Shown here: positions 11,601-63,369 of the stretch, piece after piece
Layout: each line of letters begins with the position of its first letter
Position numbering within the stretch: position 1 is the first letter of the stretch
Assembly: GCF_013340205.1 (NCBI RefSeq)
Contig: NZ_BJTG01000007.1
Span: forward strand, 62,001-126,000
Length of the DNA stretch: 64,000 nt
Reading direction: 5' to 3'
From: Anaeromyxobacter diazotrophicus
GTDB lineage: Bacteria > Myxococcota > Myxococcia > Myxococcales > Anaeromyxobacteraceae
Notes under the pieces: model-generated
Told to the model about the DNA's origin: nothing
The model's input: only the letters and a program-made list of their open reading frames with translations
Databases searched by the model: none
Translations under genes and position numbers: made by a program

Positions 11601-13319
11601 ATGGCCCTCCACCTGGCTCGTGCAACCCGCGCCGCGCTCGCCGCCGCGCTGGCGCTCCTGGCGCTCCCCGCCGCCGCCGCCCCGTCCTTCACCCCGGCCG
11701 AGCAGGCCGCTGCTGCGCGCGTGCGCGCCGACGAGATCTCCGGCCACCTCCGCTTCCTGGCCGACGATCTGCTCGAGGGGCGCGCGCCGGGCGAGCGCGG
11801 GGACGACCTCGCCGTCCGCTACCTGGCCGCGCAGCTCGAGGCGGCCGGGCTCGAGCCGGGCGTGCCGGCCGAGGGCGGGAAGCCCGCCTCGTGGTTCCAG
11901 AGCGTGCCGCTGGTGAAGCTCACCGGCGCGGTGCCGCCCGAGGTCGAGGTGCGCGGCGCCCGCGGCGCGCTGGCGCTCTCGACCCGCCCGTCGAAGGAGA
12001 TGGACCTCATCGTCGCGCCGAGCGCCGAGGTGGACCGGGTGAAGCTCGCGGGCGCCGGGCTGGTCTTCGTGGGCTACGGCATCACCGCGCCCGAGCACGG
12101 CTGGGACGACTACCGGGGCGCCGACGTCCGGGGCAAGGTGGTGGTGATCCTCAACTTCAACCCGCCCTTCGCCGGGGAGGGCGTGCGCCTCTGGTACGGG
12201 CGCTGGGACTACAAGTACGAGAACGCCGCCCGCCACGGCGCCGCCGGGGCCATCATCGTCCACACCACGCCCTCGGCCAGCTACCCGTGGCAGGTGCTCA
12301 CCGCCTCCGCGGACGGGACCGAGATGGCGCTGCCGCAGGAGCCCGGCGAGGCGCGGCTCCTCGCCAAGATGTGGGTGAGCGAGGCCGCCGCGCGGCGCGT
12401 GTTCGCGCTCGCCGGCCAGGACCTCGACGAGCGCACCCGCGCCGCGCAGGACCCGCAGCGGCGGGGCCTGGGCGCCGCGCCGCTCGGGCTCGGGCTCTCG
12501 CTCGACATGCCGGTCGCGCGCGCCGTGACGCCGAGCGCGAACGTGGTGGGCCTGCTCCGCGGGACCGACGCGAAGCTCGCGCAGGAGTACGTCCTCTACA
12601 GCGCGCACCACGACCACCTGGGGCAGCGGGCGCCCGTGCCGCCCGCGACCGACGGCATCTACAACGGCGCGCTCGACAACGCCTCCGGCTGCGCCACCGT
12701 GCTCGCCATCGCCCGCGCGGCCGCCCCCGCGCCGGCCCGGCGCTCCCTCCTGTTCGTCTTCTTCACCGCCGAGGAGAAGGGGCTCCTCGGCGCCCGCTGG
12801 TTCGCGCAGCACCCGCCGGCGCCGGCCGGGCGCCTCGCCGCCACCATCAACCTCGACGCGGTGAACATCCTCGGCCGGACGAGCGATCTCGCCATGCTCG
12901 GGCTCGGCAAGTCGTCGGTCTCCGAGGTCGTCCGCGAGGTGGCGGCGGCGCAGGGCCGCACCGTGCACGGCGACGCGTTCCCCGACCGTGGCTCCTACTA
13001 CCGGTCCGATCACTTCGAGCTGGCGCGGGTGGGCGTCCCCGACGTCTCCGTGAAGGGCGGCCCGCACTACCTCGGCCGGCCCGAGGCCTGGGGCCGCGAG
13101 CAGCAGACCGCCTACGAGCAGCGGAACTACCACCAGCCGTCGGACGAGTACCCGCCCGCGCCGGGCCGGTGGGACCTGTCCGGCGCGGTCGAGGACGCGC
13201 AGCTGCAGCTCGTGGTGGGCCTGCGGCTCGCCGACGCGCCCGGGCTGCCGCGCTGGAACGCGGGCGACGAGTTCGAGCCGGCGCGGAGCGCGGCGCTCCG
13301 GGCGCTCACTTCACGGTGA
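11601..13319 (+). CDS. Exported M28-family metallopeptidase with PA domain
   Basis: A 572-residue protein with a signal peptide (about residues 1-27, LLALPAAAA). The first half contains a protease-associated (PA) insert, recognisable from VGYGITAPEHGWDDY and DVRGKVVVILN. The catalytic half has the M28 metal ligands in order: YSAHHDHLG, NGALDNASG, FFTAEEKGLLG, NLDAVN and YYRSDHFELA. The length and domain order match bacterial aminopeptidases of the M28 group with an internal PA domain. It starts 23 bases after the patatin stop and may be co-transcribed. Its 3' end overlaps the convergent lipoprotein gene by 14 bases. It is a paralogue in function, not a close copy, of the M28 peptidase at 7.7-9.0 kb. 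Confidence 0.92.
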   Translation: MALHLARATRAALAAALALLALPAAAAPSFTPAEQAAAARVRADEISGHLRFLADDLLEGRAPGERGDDLAVRYLAAQLEAAGLEPGVPAEGGKPASWFQSVPLVKLTGAVPPEVEVRGARGALALSTRPSKEMDLIVAPSAEVDRVKLAGAGLVFVGYGITAPEHGWDDYRGADVRGKVVVILNFNPPFAGEGVRLWYGRWDYKYENAARHGAAGAIIVHTTPSASYPWQVLTASADGTEMALPQEPGEARLLAKMWVSEAAARRVFALAGQDLDERTRAAQDPQRRGLGAAPLGLGLSLDMPVARAVTPSANVVGLLRGTDAKLAQEYVLYSAHHDHLGQRAPVPPATDGIYNGALDNASGCATVLAIARAAAPAPARRSLLFVFFTAEEKGLLGARWFAQHPPAPAGRLAATINLDAVNILGRTSDLAMLGLGKSSVSEVVREVAAAQGRTVHGDAFPDRGSYYRSDHFELARVGVPDVSVKGGPHYLGRPEAWGREQQTAYEQRNYHQPSDEYPPAPGRWDLSGAVEDAQLQLVVGLRLADAPGLPRWNAGDEFEPARSAALRALTSR

Positions 13320-55638: not shown

Positions 55639-56201
55639 CCGCCCCCGCCGCCAGCCACGCCCCGGGGCGTCTCGGCGAGGCCCTCCGCGCCGTCTGCGGC
55701 CTGGTGGCCGTCGTCGCGGCCGCCGCGCTGGCGCTGGCCGTCCTCGACGCGGTGCCGTCCTGGGTGGCCGGCGACGCGCGCGACGTCCGGCGCGCGCGGA
55801 CGGTGGACGAGGTCCAGCGGCGGCTCCGGACGCGGCTCGTGCTCCCCGCGTACTTCCCGGCGCGCCTGGCCTGGCCGCCGCAGCGCATCCGCTACCTCGC
55901 CGGGCCGCCCGGCGCCGTGGGGCTGTGGGTGGACGCGCGCGGGGGCGCCCCGGCGCTGCTGCTGGCGCAGACGCTCGGGCGCGGCGAGCTGCCGGAGCGG
56001 CTCGTGCCGCCGGCGCAGGAGCTCGATCGCTCGCCCATCCAGGTGGGCGCGGCGCAGGGCCGGCTGGCGCGGGTGGTGGAGGACGGAGAGGTCCGGTGGC
56101 AGCTCACGTGGGAGCAGGGTGGCCGTAGCCTCCTCCTGCGCTCGCGCGGTAGCGTGGAGGAGCTCGTCCGCATGGCGCGCAGCGCCCGGGAGACGCCATG
56201 A
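55635..56201 (+). CDS. Unknown membrane-anchored protein of operon B
   Basis: A 188-residue protein from GTG 55635 (GTGA overlap with the previous gene). A hydrophobic helix spans about residues 18-38 (VCGLVAVVAAAALALAVLD), so the rest is probably periplasmic. The mature part has ARTVDEVQRRLRTRLVLPAYFPARLAWPP and then beta-like strands, possibly a sensory or binding domain, but no family was recognised. It overlaps the downstream kinase start by four bases, so it may be part of the signalling path of that system. Confidence 0.7.
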   Translation: MTAPAASHAPGRLGEALRAVCGLVAVVAAAALALAVLDAVPSWVAGDARDVRRARTVDEVQRRLRTRLVLPAYFPARLAWPPQRIRYLAGPPGAVGLWVDARGGAPALLLAQTLGRGELPERLVPPAQELDRSPIQVGAAQGRLARVVEDGEVRWQLTWEQGGRSLLLRSRGSVEELVRMARSARETP

Positions 56202-58129
56202 CGTCGTCGCGCACGAGGTGGCTCAGGGAGCGCAAGGCGCAGGGCCCCGCGGCGCTGCCGCTCGGGCGCCAGGGCCTGCGCTTCCGCGTCTACCTGCTGG
56301 TCTCGATCGGCGTGCTCGCCCCGGCGGCGCTGGTGGCGGGGGCGAGCTGGTCCCGGCTACGCGAGCTGGACGAGGAGATGGTGGCGACCCGGCGCCACGC
56401 GGCCTCCGCCGTGGCCGAGCACATCGACGAGGAGGTCACCGGGGATCTGGAGGTGCTGCAGCGCCTCGCCTCCGCTCCCCAGCTCGGGTTCGACGGCGAG
56501 CGGAGCGAGGGCGCGCGCGCCCTCCTGCGCGCCACCTACCTGCACGCGCAGTTCAGGGGAGGGATGTTCCTCCTCGACGCGCGCGGCCGGGTGGTGGCGG
56601 AGGAGCCTCGCGGCACGCACTCGGCGGCGCCGCCGCCGGAGCTGCCGGAGGTGCAGCAGATCCTGCGCGACGGCAAGCCGCGCATCACCCAGCTCGTGGG
56701 CGTGGGAGGCGAGGGGCACGTCTTCGCGCTGGTCTCGGTCATGGACTGGCGCGGGCAGCCCGTGGGCGTCGTGGGCGGGGTGCTCGACGTCGCCGCGCCG
56801 GTCCGCGCGCGGGTGCTCCGCCACCTCCTGCGCGGGAAGGGCGGCCACGCCGATCTGGTGGACGGGAACGGCATGGTGCTGGCGAGCACCGACCGCGAGC
56901 GCATGCATCGGCCGAGCGAGTGCCGGGAGCGGCTCGGGCGGCTGGTGGCCGGCCGCGAGCGGCAGGGGACGCGCTGCCAGGCGTGCCACCCCGGCGGCGA
57001 GCGGTCGGTGACCGCGTTCGCGACGCTGGCGGCGGCGCCCTGGGGCGTGCAGGTGGTGGTGCCGGAGGAGGCGGTGCTCGCCACCTCGGGCGCGCTGCCG
57101 ACGACGCTGCCGGTGTTCGTCGGGCTCCTGCTGGTCGTCTCGGGCGTCTTCGCCTGGGGGGCGGCGCGCAGCGTCACGCGGCCGGTGGCGGTGCTCACCG
57201 AGGCGGCCGAGCGCATCGCCGCCGGCGGCATGGACGAGCCCATCCCGGAGCTCGGGAGCGACGAGCTCGGCCGGCTCGGCCGGTCGGTGGAGCGGATGCG
57301 CTCCTCGCTGCGCGACCTCATAGGATACGTCGCGCGGGCCAACGAGCAGCTCGAGCAGCGCGTGGCCGACCGCACCGCCGAGCTCGCCCAGGCGAACGAG
57401 CGGCTGCGCCAGCGCGACGCCGAGCGGCAGCGGCTCCTGCGCACGGTCATCACCGCCCAGGAGGACGAGCGCAAGCGCATCGCGCGCGAGCTGCACGACG
57501 AGACGACCCAGAGCCTGGCGGTGCTCACGATGGGGATCGAGAGCGCCGCGGCCGCCATCCGGGCCGGGGGCCCCACGCCGCGCCTCGACGAGGTGAAGGC
57601 GCTGGCGGTGCGCACGCTGGAGGAGGTGCACCGGCTCATCCTGGACCTCCGCCCGGCGGTGCTCGACGACCTGGGGCTGTTCTCGGCCATCCGCTGGTAC
57701 GCCGAGCGGTACCTCGCCACGCGCGGCATCGCCGTCCGGTGCGAGATCAGCGAGCTCGAGCGGCGGCTGCCCCCCGAGGTCGAGATCGCGCTCTTCCGCA
57801 TCGCGCAGGAGGCGATGAACAACATCGCCCGTCACGCCCGCGCCGAGTCGGTGCTCATCCAGCTCGCGCCCGAGGGGCAGGAGCTGCGCATCGAGATCGA
57901 GGACGACGGGCAGGGCTTCGACCCGGCCGTGCAGCCGCAGGACCGGCCTCACTACGGCCTCATGGGCATCCGGGAGCGCGCCGAGCTGCTGGGGGGGACC
58001 GCGGTGGTCGACTCCTCGCCGGGGCAGGGGACGCGGCTCGAGATCCGGGTGCCGCTGCCCGGCGGCGACGCCGGGCCGGACGACGCTGGCCCCCGCGGCT
58101 CGCCGCGGCTAAGCTCGGTGGCCCCGTGA
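56198..58129 (+). CDS. NarL-type sensor histidine kinase with heme-c motif
   Basis: A 643-residue kinase. TM1 is residues 31-50; the periplasmic domain (51-301) is a Cache-like sensor that contains CQACH (Cys260-His264), a c-type heme site; TM2 is 302-322. HAMP (325-377) and a coiled coil follow, then HisKA_3 with His433 in RELHDETTQSLAVL, and HATPase with NNIARHA, DDGQGFDP and HYGLMGIRERAELLGG. Its stop overlaps the start of the next gene (GTGA), a NarL-family regulator. The Cache domain plus heme suggests a redox or gas sensor for operon B, in which it lies. Confidence 0.92.
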   Translation: MTSSRTRWLRERKAQGPAALPLGRQGLRFRVYLLVSIGVLAPAALVAGASWSRLRELDEEMVATRRHAASAVAEHIDEEVTGDLEVLQRLASAPQLGFDGERSEGARALLRATYLHAQFRGGMFLLDARGRVVAEEPRGTHSAAPPPELPEVQQILRDGKPRITQLVGVGGEGHVFALVSVMDWRGQPVGVVGGVLDVAAPVRARVLRHLLRGKGGHADLVDGNGMVLASTDRERMHRPSECRERLGRLVAGRERQGTRCQACHPGGERSVTAFATLAAAPWGVQVVVPEEAVLATSGALPTTLPVFVGLLLVVSGVFAWGAARSVTRPVAVLTEAAERIAAGGMDEPIPELGSDELGRLGRSVERMRSSLRDLIGYVARANEQLEQRVADRTAELAQANERLRQRDAERQRLLRTVITAQEDERKRIARELHDETTQSLAVLTMGIESAAAAIRAGGPTPRLDEVKALAVRTLEEVHRLILDLRPAVLDDLGLFSAIRWYAERYLATRGIAVRCEISELERRLPPEVEIALFRIAQEAMNNIARHARAESVLIQLAPEGQELRIEIEDDGQGFDPAVQPQDRPHYGLMGIRERAELLGGTAVVDSSPGQGTRLEIRVPLPGGDAGPDDAGPRGSPRLSSVAP

Positions 58130-58773
58130 GCAAGATCCGCGTCCTCATCGCCGACGACCACGCCATCCTGCGCGAAGGCGTGCGCGCCCTCCTCGCCGCC
58201 ACCGATGACATCGAGGTCATCGGGCAGGCGGCGGACGGCCGCGAGGCGGTGGACGCCTGCAAGAAGCTCGATCCGGACGTGGTGCTGATGGACATCGCCA
58301 TGCCGGGCCTGGGCGGCATCGAGGCCGCGCTCGAGATCCGCAAGGAGGGGCTGCGCGCGAAGGTGCTCGTGCTCTCGCAGTACGAGGATCGCGAGTACGT
58401 CCGCCGGCTGCTCAAGGCCGGCGTCTCGGGCTACGTGCTGAAGAAGTCGGCCGGGAGCGAGCTCGTCGGGGCCATCCGGGCCGTCTACCGGGGCGGCCTC
58501 GTCCTCGACCCCGAGGTGGCGCGCGCGGCGATGGAGGAGCAGGACCCGCAGCGCGGCGGCGGCGATCCGTACGAGGCGCTCACCGACCGGGAGAAGCAGG
58601 TGTTCCGGCTGGTGGCGGAGGGGCGCAGCAACAAGGAGGTCGCGGACGACCTCGGCATCAGCGTGAAGACCGCGATGTCCCACCGCGAGCACGTGATGCA
58701 GAAGCTCGACCTGCACAACCGGACCGAGCTCGTCCGCCTGGCCTTGAAGCTCGGCGTGATCCGGATCAGCTAG
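58126..58773 (+). CDS. NarL/FixJ-family response regulator
   Basis: A 215-residue protein from GTG 58126. Receiver: phospho-Asp56 in [10 protein letters not shown], acidic pocket ADDH at the start and Lys in YVLKKSAG. The C-terminal LuxR-type HTH contains [20 protein letters not shown] and the recognition helix [13 protein letters not shown]. It is the output of the heme kinase upstream. The GTG overlaps the kinase stop. It probably binds a sigma-70 promoter; its target site is unknown. Confidence 0.95.
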
Positions 58774-58799: not shown

Positions 58800-58927
58800 G
58801 TGGGGTGAAGATCCCCCGACCATGTAGGGCACCCGCATCCGTTTCGCGAGCCTGCGACACCTGCGCGCGGACGACGCATAAAATGCGGGCGCTATTCTGT
58901 AAGTCATGGATTTCACGCTGGTTAGCT

Positions 58928-58943
58928 CGGCACGCTGATTGCT
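58928..58943 (+). promoter_or_regulatory. Sigma-54 (-24/-12) promoter upstream of hemA
   Basis: CGGCACGCTGATTGCT fits TGGCACGN4TTGCW in every defined position except the first base. The invariant GG (58929-58930) and GC (58941-58942) are separated by exactly ten bases. The predicted start is near 58954, about 37 bases before GTG 58991, with AAAGGAG in the leader. Two sigma-54 activators are encoded in the same locus. Confidence 0.65.
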
Positions 58944-58990
58944 CGGCTGGCTGCACCATTCCTCAGCAGCTGCGGGAAAGGAGCGCACAC

Positions 58991-60262
58991 GTGCTCATCG
59001 CCGTGGGCCTCAATCAGAAGGGTGCGACCGTCGCGGATCGCGAGCGCCTCGCGGTCCGCGCCGAGGAGATGGCGAACGTCATCCAGGGCTACGCCGCGCT
59101 GGGAGGCGTGGACGAGCTCGTCCTCCTCTCCACCTGCTACCGCCTCGAGATCTACGCCGCGACCCGCTGCCCCTCCGCCGCCGCGGTCGCGCTGCGGCGG
59201 GCGCTCTCGGAGCGGGCCGGCGGCGCCGAGGTCCCGCTCTTCGAGCTGCACGGGGACGACGCGCTCCGGCACATGCTGCGGGTCGCCTCCAGCCTCGAGT
59301 CGGCGGTGCTGGGCGAGCCGCAGATCCTGGGGCAGGTGAAGGAGGCGCACGCGCGCGCGACCGAGGCGGGCGTCCTCGGGCGCGAGCTCAACGGCGTGCT
59401 CCACCGCGTGTTCGAGGTGGCGAAGCGGGTCCGCACCGAGACCGCCATCGGCCGCGCCGGCGTGTCGTGGGGCAACGCCGCGGCGGCGCTGGCGGAGAAG
59501 GTGCTCGGCACCGTGCGCGGCCGGCGCGTGCTCGTCCTCGGCGCCGGCGAGATGGCGCGCCTCTCCGCCCAGCACCTGCGGGAGCAGGGGGCCGAGGTGG
59601 TGGTGGTGAACCGCACGCTCGCGAACGCCGAGGCGCTGGCGGCCGAGGTGGGCGGGACGGCCCGGCCGCTCGAGGCGCTCGACGAGGAGCTGCTGCTGGC
59701 GGACGTGGTGGTGTCGGCCGCCCCCGCGGCGCCGGCCGCCTTCGCCCCGGCGGCGCTCCGCGCCACCGTGAAGGCGCGCCGCCGGCGCGACCTCGTCATG
59801 GTGGACCTGGCCGTGCCGCGCGCCATCCCCGCCGAGTCCGGGGCCATCGACGGGGTGTGGCTGTGCGACGTCGACGACCTGGCGCGGCTCACGCAGCGCG
59901 CGCTCGCCGACCGGACCCAGGCCGTCGCCGACGCGGAGCGGGTCATCGAGGAGGAGCTGGCGCGGTTCCGGCGCGATCAGGCGGAGCGGAAGGCGGCGCC
60001 CATCATCCAGGCGATGCGCCAGCACGCCGCGAGCATCGCGCGCGAGGAGGTCGACCGCACGGTGAAGCGCCTCGGCGCCGACGCCGAGATCGAGCGCCGG
60101 CTGGACGCGATGGCAAACGCGGTCGTGTCGAAGCTCCTGCACGCGCCTAGCACGCGCCTCCGCCGGGCCGGGGTCGACGGGCCGGGCGGCGAGCGCCTCA
60201 TGGCGGCCGCGGTCGAGATCTTCGGCCTGCCGCTCGACGGCGCGCCCCCCGCGGCGCGCTGA
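58991..60262 (+). CDS. hemA: Glutamyl-tRNA reductase
   Basis: A 423-residue protein from GTG 58991; AAAGGAG lies eight bases upstream. The N-terminus [18 protein letters not shown] is typical. The catalytic Cys is in [11 protein letters not shown], the substrate-binding region follows in [17 protein letters not shown], and the NADPH Rossmann motif is [12 protein letters not shown]. The C-terminal dimerisation helix is present. HemA reduces glutamyl-tRNA to glutamate-1-semialdehyde, the committed step of heme synthesis. A near-consensus sigma-54 promoter lies upstream, which would link heme synthesis to activator-controlled redox signals. Confidence 0.96.
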
Positions 60263-60431: not shown

Positions 60432-60447
60432 TGGTCCGCTCCTTGCG
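60432..60447 (+). promoter_or_regulatory. Sigma-54 (-24/-12) promoter candidate before the third kinase
   Basis: TGGTCCGCTCCTTGCG keeps GG (60433-60434) and GC (60445-60446) with ten bases between, and a full TTGC. Mismatches to consensus are at positions 4, 5 and 16. It lies 22 bases before ATG 60470. Confidence 0.5.
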
Positions 60448-60469: not shown

Positions 60470-61990
60470 ATGCCAGCCCTGATGCGACATGTCGGCGACG
60501 TGTGGCGGCGCCTCGACCGGAGCGTGCGCGCGCGCATCCTCCTGCCGACGGCGCTCCTGTTCGCCACCACGCTCGCGCTCATGGTGATGTCGGCGGTCGA
60601 GTTCTACGCCTCGGACATGGAGCGCGGGCTCCAGGAGAAGTCCGAGATCTTCGCCGGCATGGTGGTGAACGGCGTCAACGACACCATGCTGCACGGCACG
60701 CCCGAGCAGCTCCCCGACGTGCTGGCGCTCGTCATGGCGCACCGCACGGACATCGAGTCGATCAGCCTCATCCGCCCGACCGGCGAGGTGCACAGCTCCT
60801 CGCGCCGGGAGCTGGTCGGGACGCGGCCGTGGGGCAACCTCGGGCGCTTCGGCTCCCCGACCGTCGTGAACGCGCCCGGCGGGAACCCGGCGCAGTACGC
60901 GGTGCTCCAGCCCATCCCGAACTCGGCCGCCTGCGCCTCCTGCCACGGCACGGCGCAGCGCTACAACGGGTGGCTCGACCTGCGCTTCAACCGCAAGGCG
61001 ATCATCACGCAGCAGACCCGGCTCACGCACACCCTCGTCACCTCCGCCGCCGTCGCCTTCGTGTGCCTGATGGTCATCGCCTGGTGGCTGGTGGGGCGGG
61101 AGGCGGTGGCGCCGCTGAAGCGCCTCGTCGCCTCCATGAAGCGGGCCGAGTCGGGCGACCTGTCGGTCACCGCGGACGAGGGGCGCGCCGACGAGCTCGG
61201 CGTGGCCGCCCGCGGCTTCGACGCCATGCTGGCGGCGCTCCGGCGGAGCCAGAACGAGCTCGAGGCGTTCTACCGCGAGCGGATGGTGCGCGCCGATCGC
61301 TTCGCCGCGGTGGGCGAGCTCGCGACCGGCCTCGCCCACGAGATCAAGAACCCGCTGGCCGGCCTCTCCGGGGCGCTGGAGCTGCTGGCCGAGGACCTCG
61401 CCTCCTCGCCGCGACAGGCCGAGGTGGTGACGGAGATGCGCCACCAGGTGGCGCGGCTCGGCAACACGATGGAGAGCCTCCTCAGCTTCGCCCGCCCGCC
61501 CAAGGCGCGCCTGCGCACCACCGACGTCAACGCCACCCTGGAGAAGGTGCTGTTCCTGGTGCGGCAGCAGCGGCGCGGCGCCTCGGTCGCCCTCACCCTG
61601 GAGCTCGGCCAGACGCTGCCGCCGGTGCTGGCCGACCCGAACCAGCTGGAGCAGGTCCTGCTCAACATCTGCCTCAACGCCTGCCAGGCCATGGACGGCA
61701 AGGGCAAGCTCGTCCTGCGCACGTTCGAGATCGACGGCCGGGTGACGGTCGAGATCGAGGACGACGGCCCGGGCATCCCGGCCGAGGTCCGCCAGCACAT
61801 GTTCAAGCCCTTCTTCACCACCAAGCGCGAGGGGAACGGCCTCGGCCTCGCCATCTCGGCCCGCATCGTCGCCGAGCACGGCGGCCACATCGGCTACCGC
61901 TGCCCGCCCGCGGGCGGCACGATCTTCGCGGTCACCTTGCAGCGCGCGCTTCCGGCGGGGCCGGATCGCAGCCCGGAGCACGCGACATGA
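60470..61990 (+). CDS. Sensor histidine kinase with heme-c motif (NtrB-like)
   Basis: A 506-residue kinase from ATG 60470; ATG 60482 is an alternative, and neither has a clear ribosome site. TM1 is residues 22-42. The periplasmic domain (43-186) contains CASCH (Cys155-His159), preceded by AVLQPIPNSAA, a form seen in heme-PAS-like periplasmic sensors. TM2 is 187-208. HAMP (209-262), HisKA with His290 in GLAHEIKNPLAGLSG, and HATPase with NICLNACQAM, DDGPGIPAEVRQHMF and GNGLGLAISARI follow. It is coupled by ATGA to an NtrC-type regulator. Confidence 0.92.
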   Translation: MPALMRHVGDVWRRLDRSVRARILLPTALLFATTLALMVMSAVEFYASDMERGLQEKSEIFAGMVVNGVNDTMLHGTPEQLPDVLALVMAHRTDIESISLIRPTGEVHSSSRRELVGTRPWGNLGRFGSPTVVNAPGGNPAQYAVLQPIPNSAACASCHGTAQRYNGWLDLRFNRKAIITQQTRLTHTLVTSAAVAFVCLMVIAWWLVGREAVAPLKRLVASMKRAESGDLSVTADEGRADELGVAARGFDAMLAALRRSQNELEAFYRERMVRADRFAAVGELATGLAHEIKNPLAGLSGALELLAEDLASSPRQAEVVTEMRHQVARLGNTMESLLSFARPPKARLRTTDVNATLEKVLFLVRQQRRGASVALTLELGQTLPPVLADPNQLEQVLLNICLNACQAMDGKGKLVLRTFEIDGRVTVEIEDDGPGIPAEVRQHMFKPFFTTKREGNGLGLAISARIVAEHGGHIGYRCPPAGGTIFAVTLQRALPAGPDRSPEHAT

Positions 61991-63369
61991 CGACCAGCAC
62001 GGCCCGCATCCTGGTGGTGGACGACGAGAAGCTCATCCGCTGGTCGGTGGGCGAGCGGCTGCAGCGCGACGGCTACGAGGTGCTGGCCGCCGAGTCCGGC
62101 GAGCAGGCCCTCGACCTGGTCGCGGCCAACGCGCCCGACCTCATGCTCCTCGACGTGCGGCTGCCCGGGATCGACGGGCTCACCACGCTGCAGCGCGCGC
62201 TCTCGATCAACCCGGAGGTCACCGTCCTCATGATGTCGGCCCACTCCACGGTCGACATCGCGGTCGAGGCGATGAAGCACGGGGCCATCGACTTCCTGGT
62301 GAAGCCGTTCCCGTTCCAGTCGCTCGACGCCGCGGTGCAGCGCGCGCTCCAGACCGCCCGCACCCGCCGCCAGATCGCGGCGCTCACCTCCGAGCGCAAG
62401 AGCGGCAACGCGGTGCTGGGGGCGCTGGTGGGGCGCTCGGGCGCGATGGAGTCGATCCGGAGCATGGTCTCGCGGCTGGCCGCCTCCGACGCCACCACCG
62501 TCCTCATCGAGGGCGAGAGCGGCGCCGGCAAGGAGGTGGTGGCGCGCGCCGTCCACTTCGAGAGCGCGCGCGCCGAGAAGCCGTTCATGCAGGTGAACTG
62601 CGCGGCGCTGCCCGAGCACCTGCTGGAGAGCGAGCTCTTCGGGCACGAGCGCGGGGCCTTCACCGACGCCCACACCCAGAAGCGCGGCTTGTTCGAGAGC
62701 GCCGAGGGCGGGTCGGTGATGCTGGACGAGATCGGCGACCTGCCGCCGGGCGGCCAGGCGAAGCTCCTCCGGCTGCTCGAGAACAAGACCTTCCGCCGGG
62801 TGGGCGGCGTCCACGAGCTCAGGGCCGACGTGCGGGTGCTGGCCGCCACCAACGTCAACCTGGAGGAGCGGGTGGCCGAGGGGCGCTTCCGGGCCGACCT
62901 GTTCTTCCGCCTCAACGTGGTGCGCATCCTCATGCCGTCCCTGCGCGAGCACGTGGAGGACATCTCCATCCTGGCCGCGCACTTCATCGCCAAGTTCAAC
63001 CAGGAGATGAAGCGCGACGTGAAGGGCGTCTCCCCGGCGGCGCTCGACGTGCTCACCGGGTACCACTGGCCCGGGAACGTCCGCGAGCTGCGCAACGTCA
63101 TCGAGCGCGCGTTCATCCTGCACGCCAGCGCCGACGAGATCCGCCCCGAGCACCTGCCCCCCGAGCTGCGCAAGCTCCCCCCGCAGAAGAAGCAGGAGAA
63201 GCTCGTCCCGCAGGTCGCCGAGCAGGGCATCGTCCTCGAGGACGTGGAGAAGAAGCTCATCACCGAGGCGATGGAGCGCGCGAACGGCAACCAGTCGAAG
63301 GCCGCGCGTCTGCTCGGGATCAGCCGCGACACGCTCCGCTACCGGCTGAAGAAGCACGGGATGGCGTGA
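61987..63369 (+). CDS. NtrC-family sigma-54 response regulator (GAFTDA variant)
   Basis: A 460-residue protein. Receiver: VVDDEK acidic pocket, phospho-Asp56 in LMLLDVRLPG, Lys in FLVKPF. AAA+ domain: Walker A GESGAGKE (176-183), Walker B GGSVMLDEIGD. The sigma-54 contact loop reads GAFTDA (223-228) instead of GAFTGA. The Phe and Thr, thought to touch sigma-54, are kept. The C-terminal Fis-type HTH is QSKAARLLGISRDTLRYRL. It overlaps the heme kinase (ATGA) and is its likely partner. Targets may include the sigma-54 elements at 58928 and 60432. Confidence 0.95.
   Translation: MTTSTARILVVDDEKLIRWSVGERLQRDGYEVLAAESGEQALDLVAANAPDLMLLDVRLPGIDGLTTLQRALSINPEVTVLMMSAHSTVDIAVEAMKHGAIDFLVKPFPFQSLDAAVQRALQTARTRRQIAALTSERKSGNAVLGALVGRSGAMESIRSMVSRLAASDATTVLIEGESGAGKEVVARAVHFESARAEKPFMQVNCAALPEHLLESELFGHERGAFTDAHTQKRGLFESAEGGSVMLDEIGDLPPGGQAKLLRLLENKTFRRVGGVHELRADVRVLAATNVNLEERVAEGRFRADLFFRLNVVRILMPSLREHVEDISILAAHFIAKFNQEMKRDVKGVSPAALDVLTGYHWPGNVRELRNVIERAFILHASADEIRPEHLPPELRKLPPQKKQEKLVPQVAEQGIVLEDVEKKLITEAMERANGNQSKAARLLGISRDTLRYRLKKHGMA

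Follow-up and report, generated by a model that had tools for sequence, protein, structure and literature searches.

A conserved, predicted sigma-54 promoter before a second glutamyl-tRNA reductase gene in Anaeromyxobacter diazotrophicus, next to a CxxCH sensor kinase and an NtrC-type activator

In bacteria with a C5 pathway, glutamyl-tRNA reductase catalyses the entry step of heme synthesis, and this step is controlled. In Geobacter sulfurreducens, sigma-54 control through the RpoN regulon reaches cytochromes and formate dehydrogenase, with the consensus TTGGCACGGTTTTTGCT (PMC2725144); the main text of that study mentions neither hemA nor glutamyl-tRNA reductase. In Shewanella, hemH1/hemH2 and RpoE2 provide a case of a second heme-synthesis enzyme placed under an alternative sigma factor (PMC6664582). 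Heme-c Cache domains have also been described, one of which, fused to a signalling module, behaves in an NO-sensor-like manner (preprint, PMC12889525).

Here we describe a locus in a 64-kb stretch of the A. diazotrophicus genome (the window), in which a glutamyl-tRNA reductase gene, hemA2, is followed by a histidine kinase (HK2) and an NtrC-type activator (EBP). The features discussed below are as follows.

56198–58773, + strand: upstream CxxCH kinase and GerE/NarL-type regulator, directly 5' of hemA2
58835–58846, + strand: U2, GCATCCGTTTCG, candidate activator site centred at about −113; GCA-N4-TTTCG in 12/12 orthologs
58875–58887, + strand: U1, dyad CGCATAAAATGCG, candidate activator site centred at about −73; CGCA-N5-TGC in 12/12 orthologs
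58928–58943, + strand: predicted sigma-54 −24/−12 element of hemA2, CGGCACGCTGATTGCT; conserved in 12/12 orthologs
58991–60262, + strand: hemA2, the second glutamyl-tRNA reductase gene, starting with GTG and encoding 423 aa
60268–60280, no strand assigned: perfect palindrome CGCAACCGTTGCG in the hemA2–HK2 gap, U1-like
60432–60447, + strand: weak −24/−12-like site ahead of HK2, TGGTCCGCTCCTTGCG, with three mismatches and an intact core
60470–61990, + strand: HK2, membrane histidine kinase with HAMP, HisKA and HATPase_c (Pfam)
60932–60946, + strand: CxxCH of HK2 (residues 155–159), a single motif in the extracytoplasmic domain
61987–63369, + strand: EBP, NtrC-type sigma-54 activator with receiver, AAA+ and Fis-type HTH

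HemA2 has the Pfam domains GlutR_N (PF05201), Shikimate_DH (PF01488) and GlutR_dimer (PF00745), and scores 348.5 bits against TIGR01035 (cut-off 209.55). HemA relatives were gathered from 24 genomes within the family of the host, and each locus, once oriented, was searched over as much as 450 nt upstream. The HemA proteins of the family split in two: hemA2, to which the window gene and its 11 orthologs (60–69% identity) belong, and hemA1, at 38–43%. Cys49 and His94, which we take to be the catalytic Cys and the conserved His of glutamyl-tRNA reductase, are invariant across HemA1 and HemA2. hemA1 is present in 23/24 family genomes and hemA2 in 12/24; at E < 1e-100, a search of 123 further genomes from the class found no hemA2. 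The host hemA1 lies between a cytochrome-c-assembly gene (ccsA/hemX-like) and hemC-hemD. By sequence, then, hemA2 is a second paralog and not the only glutamyl-tRNA reductase gene of the cell. The first-pass annotation had suggested that heme supply depends on an activator. This is supported for the control of hemA2, given its putative sigma-54 promoter, an rpoN gene in the host genome (one match) and conserved upstream blocks; heme supply in general would not have to rely on an activator, because hemA2 is a second paralog and hemA1 lies elsewhere.

The same annotation had described a near-consensus sigma-54 element before hemA, off consensus only in its first base and correctly spaced by 10 bases, and both details were confirmed. 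GG (58929–58930) and GC (58941–58942) are separated by N10, leaving the core intact, and the single mismatch of CGGCACGCTGATTGCT to TGGCACG-N4-TTGCW falls at the first base. No other site in the window combines an intact GG/GC core with one mismatch or fewer, the number expected by chance being 0.23 (first-order Markov resamples); the class with at most two mismatches shows no excess in the window (5 observed versus 6.7 expected). Pattern counts in the host genome (4.83 Mb, 17 contigs) gave 6 occurrences of YGGCACGN4TTGCW versus 2 for a reversed-pattern control. Because near matches are expected by chance, the element judged without comparison has modest support and is suggestive only.

Comparison across genomes makes the element convincing, because it is conserved amid diverged flanking sequence. 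Upstream of hemA2, GGCAC-N5-TTGCT is invariant in all 12 family genomes carrying the gene, and NGGCAC[GA]N4TTGCT begins 43–63 nt 5' of the start codon in each. No such element was present within the 450 nt scanned upstream of 18 hemA1 loci, some of which had two-mismatch matches only, with a different −12 region. When the upstream regions of the 12 hemA2 genes were aligned, 29 columns before the start codon were invariant, 25 of them in U2 (8), U1 (7) and the −24/−12 element (10), and the remaining 4 on or close to the ribosome-binding site. U2 and U1 are spaced by 39–40 bp, and U1 lies 54–58 bp from the −24 element, in 12/12 orthologs; the U1 of the window is less similar than the U1 of its relatives. 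Activators usually bind upstream, in the region where U1 and U2 sit, and U2, U1 and −24/−12 are arranged as one would expect for a sigma-54 promoter that has two activator sites upstream. The predicted transcription start lies at about 58954, some 12 nt past the GC at 58942. These observations support a sigma-54 promoter for hemA2, and control of the gene would be activator-dependent because the promoter is of this type. An Rfam scan near hemA2 returned nothing credible.

Other occurrences of these strings were seen in the host genome. Matches to U1 plus −24/−12 besides hemA2 are scattered and chance-like, as judged by eye. One further U2–U1 pair (G000:C6:335167-335218, L117), without a good −24/−12, lies between formate-dehydrogenase-like and binding-protein-like genes (identities by eye). 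A repeat of about 110 bp, dispersed in at least 14 copies (for example, L081-L085, L087-L089, L091, L093, L096-L098 and L100 in G000), includes a GGCACC-N4-TTGCT string, mostly GGCACCGGCGTTGCT, which mimics −24/−12 and inflates genome-wide sigma-54 counts. About 740 bp past the window end, GGCACCACCGTTGCT (G000:C7:126743-126757, − strand, L099) precedes, by about 65 nt, an ORF reading like an RpoH-type sigma factor, and this gene may therefore also have a sigma-54 promoter.

The CxxCH motif of HK2 is retained in all 18 orthologs read. The predicted structure of the sensor domain (pLDDT 86.9) has a Cache/PAS-like fold, and no PDB entry was significantly related to the domain by sequence. Foldseek placed the Geobacter heme-c domains GSU0935 and GSU0582 among seven matches with E < 0.001. 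Like these two and the sCache_heme (DUF3365/Tll0287) sensors, HK2 has a single extracytoplasmic CxxCH domain of Cache/PAS-like fold; it differs in that the Pfam matches are weak and sub-threshold, and in that the best Z in structural comparison goes to the sensor domains of WalK, which are heme-free. The Tll0287-like Pfam model gave a weak, sub-threshold match in 5/18 HK2 members (best E 0.0083) and no match in the window HK2, and the Mcp40H-20_sensor model matched 9/18 members, again weakly and below threshold. A single c-type heme is probably attached to this domain, and HK2 would probably report redox state, nitric oxide or heme status. One HK2 match (G005:C1:75364-76872) holds a TAG, reflecting either a sequencing error or a broken gene.

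EBP matches Response_reg (PF00072), Sigma54_activat (PF00158) and HTH_8 (PF02954); its best-scoring models are AtoC, NtrC and ZraR, with scores below every NCBIfam equivalog cut-off. The GAFTGA loop is the sigma-54 contact of NtrC-type activators. EBP carries GAFTDA at residues 223–228 in its place, as does the EBP of 15/18 ortholog loci, the other three being without the motif in a simple scan. GAFTDA is listed among the GAFTGA variants expected to stay functional (PMC4641369). The gene order hemA2-HK2-EBP was found in 9/9 loci with wider flanks checked (the window and eight relatives). In G001, the EBP match shifts frame near residue 80 (L043, ~12892-12895), again a sequencing error or a broken gene. 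It had been proposed that the activator of hemA2 is one of the nearby heme-kinase partners, and this fits the downstream pair (60470–63369), which includes a sigma-54 activator and is present at all nine loci. From its proximity, the downstream EBP is the likely activator of hemA2.

Taken together, we think it quite likely that the locus is a self-contained sigma-54 module that ties an inducible enzyme for ALA formation to the production of multiheme cytochromes. Points that weigh against this reading are the off-consensus first base of the element, the lower similarity of U1 in the window, the missing divergent cytochrome in this genome, the assignment of EBP to U1/U2 by proximity where other regulators are encoded, and the kinase–EBP pairs without hemA2. 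Following this logic, sigma-54 RNA polymerase would stay closed at the −24/−12 element of hemA2 until activated. HK2 would phosphorylate its neighbour EBP, and phosphorylated EBP would then bind U1 and U2 and open the hemA2 promoter, with extra ALA for heme as the output when multiheme cytochromes are induced; heme supply could thus probably be raised on demand during cytochrome making. If hemA2, HK2 and EBP form one operon, the module would amplify itself. A separate promoter for HK2 is conceivable because of the 207-bp gap between hemA2 and HK2, the palindrome and the weak −24/−12-like site within it; TGGTCCGCTCCTTGCG is a possible internal promoter, and comparable three-mismatch sites precede HK2 in L067, L068 and L069. 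We regard as rather unlikely a different version of the signal, in which the CxxCH domain of HK2 senses heme shortage in cytochrome-c maturation and the pair then induces hemA2 via sigma-54 along with the heme-consuming multiheme cytochromes; HK2 could report such a shortage because it would itself need covalently attached heme.

HK2 occurs in 22/24 family genomes, and in ten fetched HK2 loci without an adjacent hemA2, EBP still follows HK2. Because the kinase–EBP pair occurs without hemA2 in some genomes, hemA2 is, on gene distribution, neither the sole nor the original target of the pair. Several loci without hemA2 keep U1 alone, or U1 and U2, upstream of HK2. Both sites precede HK2-EBP in L073, L075 and L076, an arrangement that fits an autoregulated module. 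A + strand −24/−12 is no longer recognisable in L073 and L075, and L076 has a close match, GGGCATGTGGCTTGCT, directly before HK2; these few cases suggest that −24/−12 is kept where a gene remains to drive.

An opposite-strand −24/−12-like element, [CT]GGCAC[CT]N4TTGC[AT], lies upstream of the sites in 14 loci, and in many relatives U1/U2 sit between hemA2 (or the kinase) and this divergent element. In 8 of the 14, the element faces a multiheme cytochrome: the divergent product has 17–21 CxxCH motifs in L039, L046, L067, L071, L072 and L073, and is truncated by the contig end in L076 and L118. The protein in L067 has matches to the doubled-CXXCH and decaheme families of cytochromes. Elsewhere the divergent product is helix-turn-helix-like, as judged by eye (L040, L042, L047 and L069), or the divergent side reaches a contig end (L070 and L075). 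The genome of the window has no divergent cytochrome beside hemA2 and no close ortholog of it, with 34–40% partial matches only, to a different large multiheme protein. The upstream kinase/NarL-type pair of the window does have multiheme cytochrome genes nearby; one is found some 3 kb further upstream, followed by an apparent cytochrome b subunit.

These distributions also bear on which activator acts. We consider it unlikely that the sigma-54 promoter is real and is served by another EBP of the cell, with HK2-EBP controlling other genes. The assignment of EBP to U1/U2 is based on proximity, other regulators are encoded in the genome and HK2-EBP is present in genomes without hemA2, but hemA2 is accompanied by HK2-EBP wherever checked, and L073, L075 and L076 keep U1/U2 before HK2-EBP despite missing hemA2.

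It is very improbable that the −24/−12 match arose by chance and that hemA2 is instead read from a sigma-70-type promoter, with a −10 such as TAAAAT (58879–58884) or TATTCT (58893–58898). Near matches to −24/−12 do arise by chance, and AT-rich hexamers are present upstream of hemA2. However, all 10 consensus-type positions are invariant in 12 orthologs whose proteins share 59–69% identity, TAAAAT falls where the core of U1 varies, and TATTCT shows no conservation. A scan that performs poorly for GC-rich myxobacteria found no sigma-70-like site around hemA2, and a terminator scan of the same region found none.

Control of hemA2 by the upstream kinase and NarL-type regulator, the other heme-kinase partner nearby, is most improbable and was rejected for its domain content and distribution: this pair directly precedes hemA2 on the same strand, its kinase also has a CxxCH and it is retained near hemA2 in L043, L044 and L045 as well as in the window (4/9 loci), but its regulator is of the GerE type without a sigma-54 activator domain, and five hemA2 loci have an identical promoter architecture without the pair nearby.

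If the proposed sigma-54 module is correct, it would constitute a direct transcriptional link from respiratory cytochrome demand to heme supply, and the hypothesis can be tested directly by way of its gene set, two sites and predicted start. The parts of the module are of known kinds; their combination with a glutamyl-tRNA reductase, and sigma-54 control of a glutamyl-tRNA reductase gene as such, were not found in the literature searched, in which few subscription journals were covered. As in AtoSC, ZraSR and NtrBC, where a membrane or cytosolic kinase stands beside a receiver-AAA+-Fis activator and promoters of the −24/−12 type have upstream dyads, HK2 and EBP are neighbours and the hemA2 promoter region has this layout; unlike in those systems, the predicted target encodes a glutamyl-tRNA reductase, and a CxxCH is present in the sensor of the kinase. 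With the RpoN regulon of G. sulfurreducens, the module would share sigma-54 control linked to cytochromes. With hemH in Shewanella, which is also cytochrome-rich, it would share a second heme enzyme under an alternative sigma factor, although the pairing there is of ferrochelatase with an ECF sigma factor, and here it would be of glutamyl-tRNA reductase with sigma-54.
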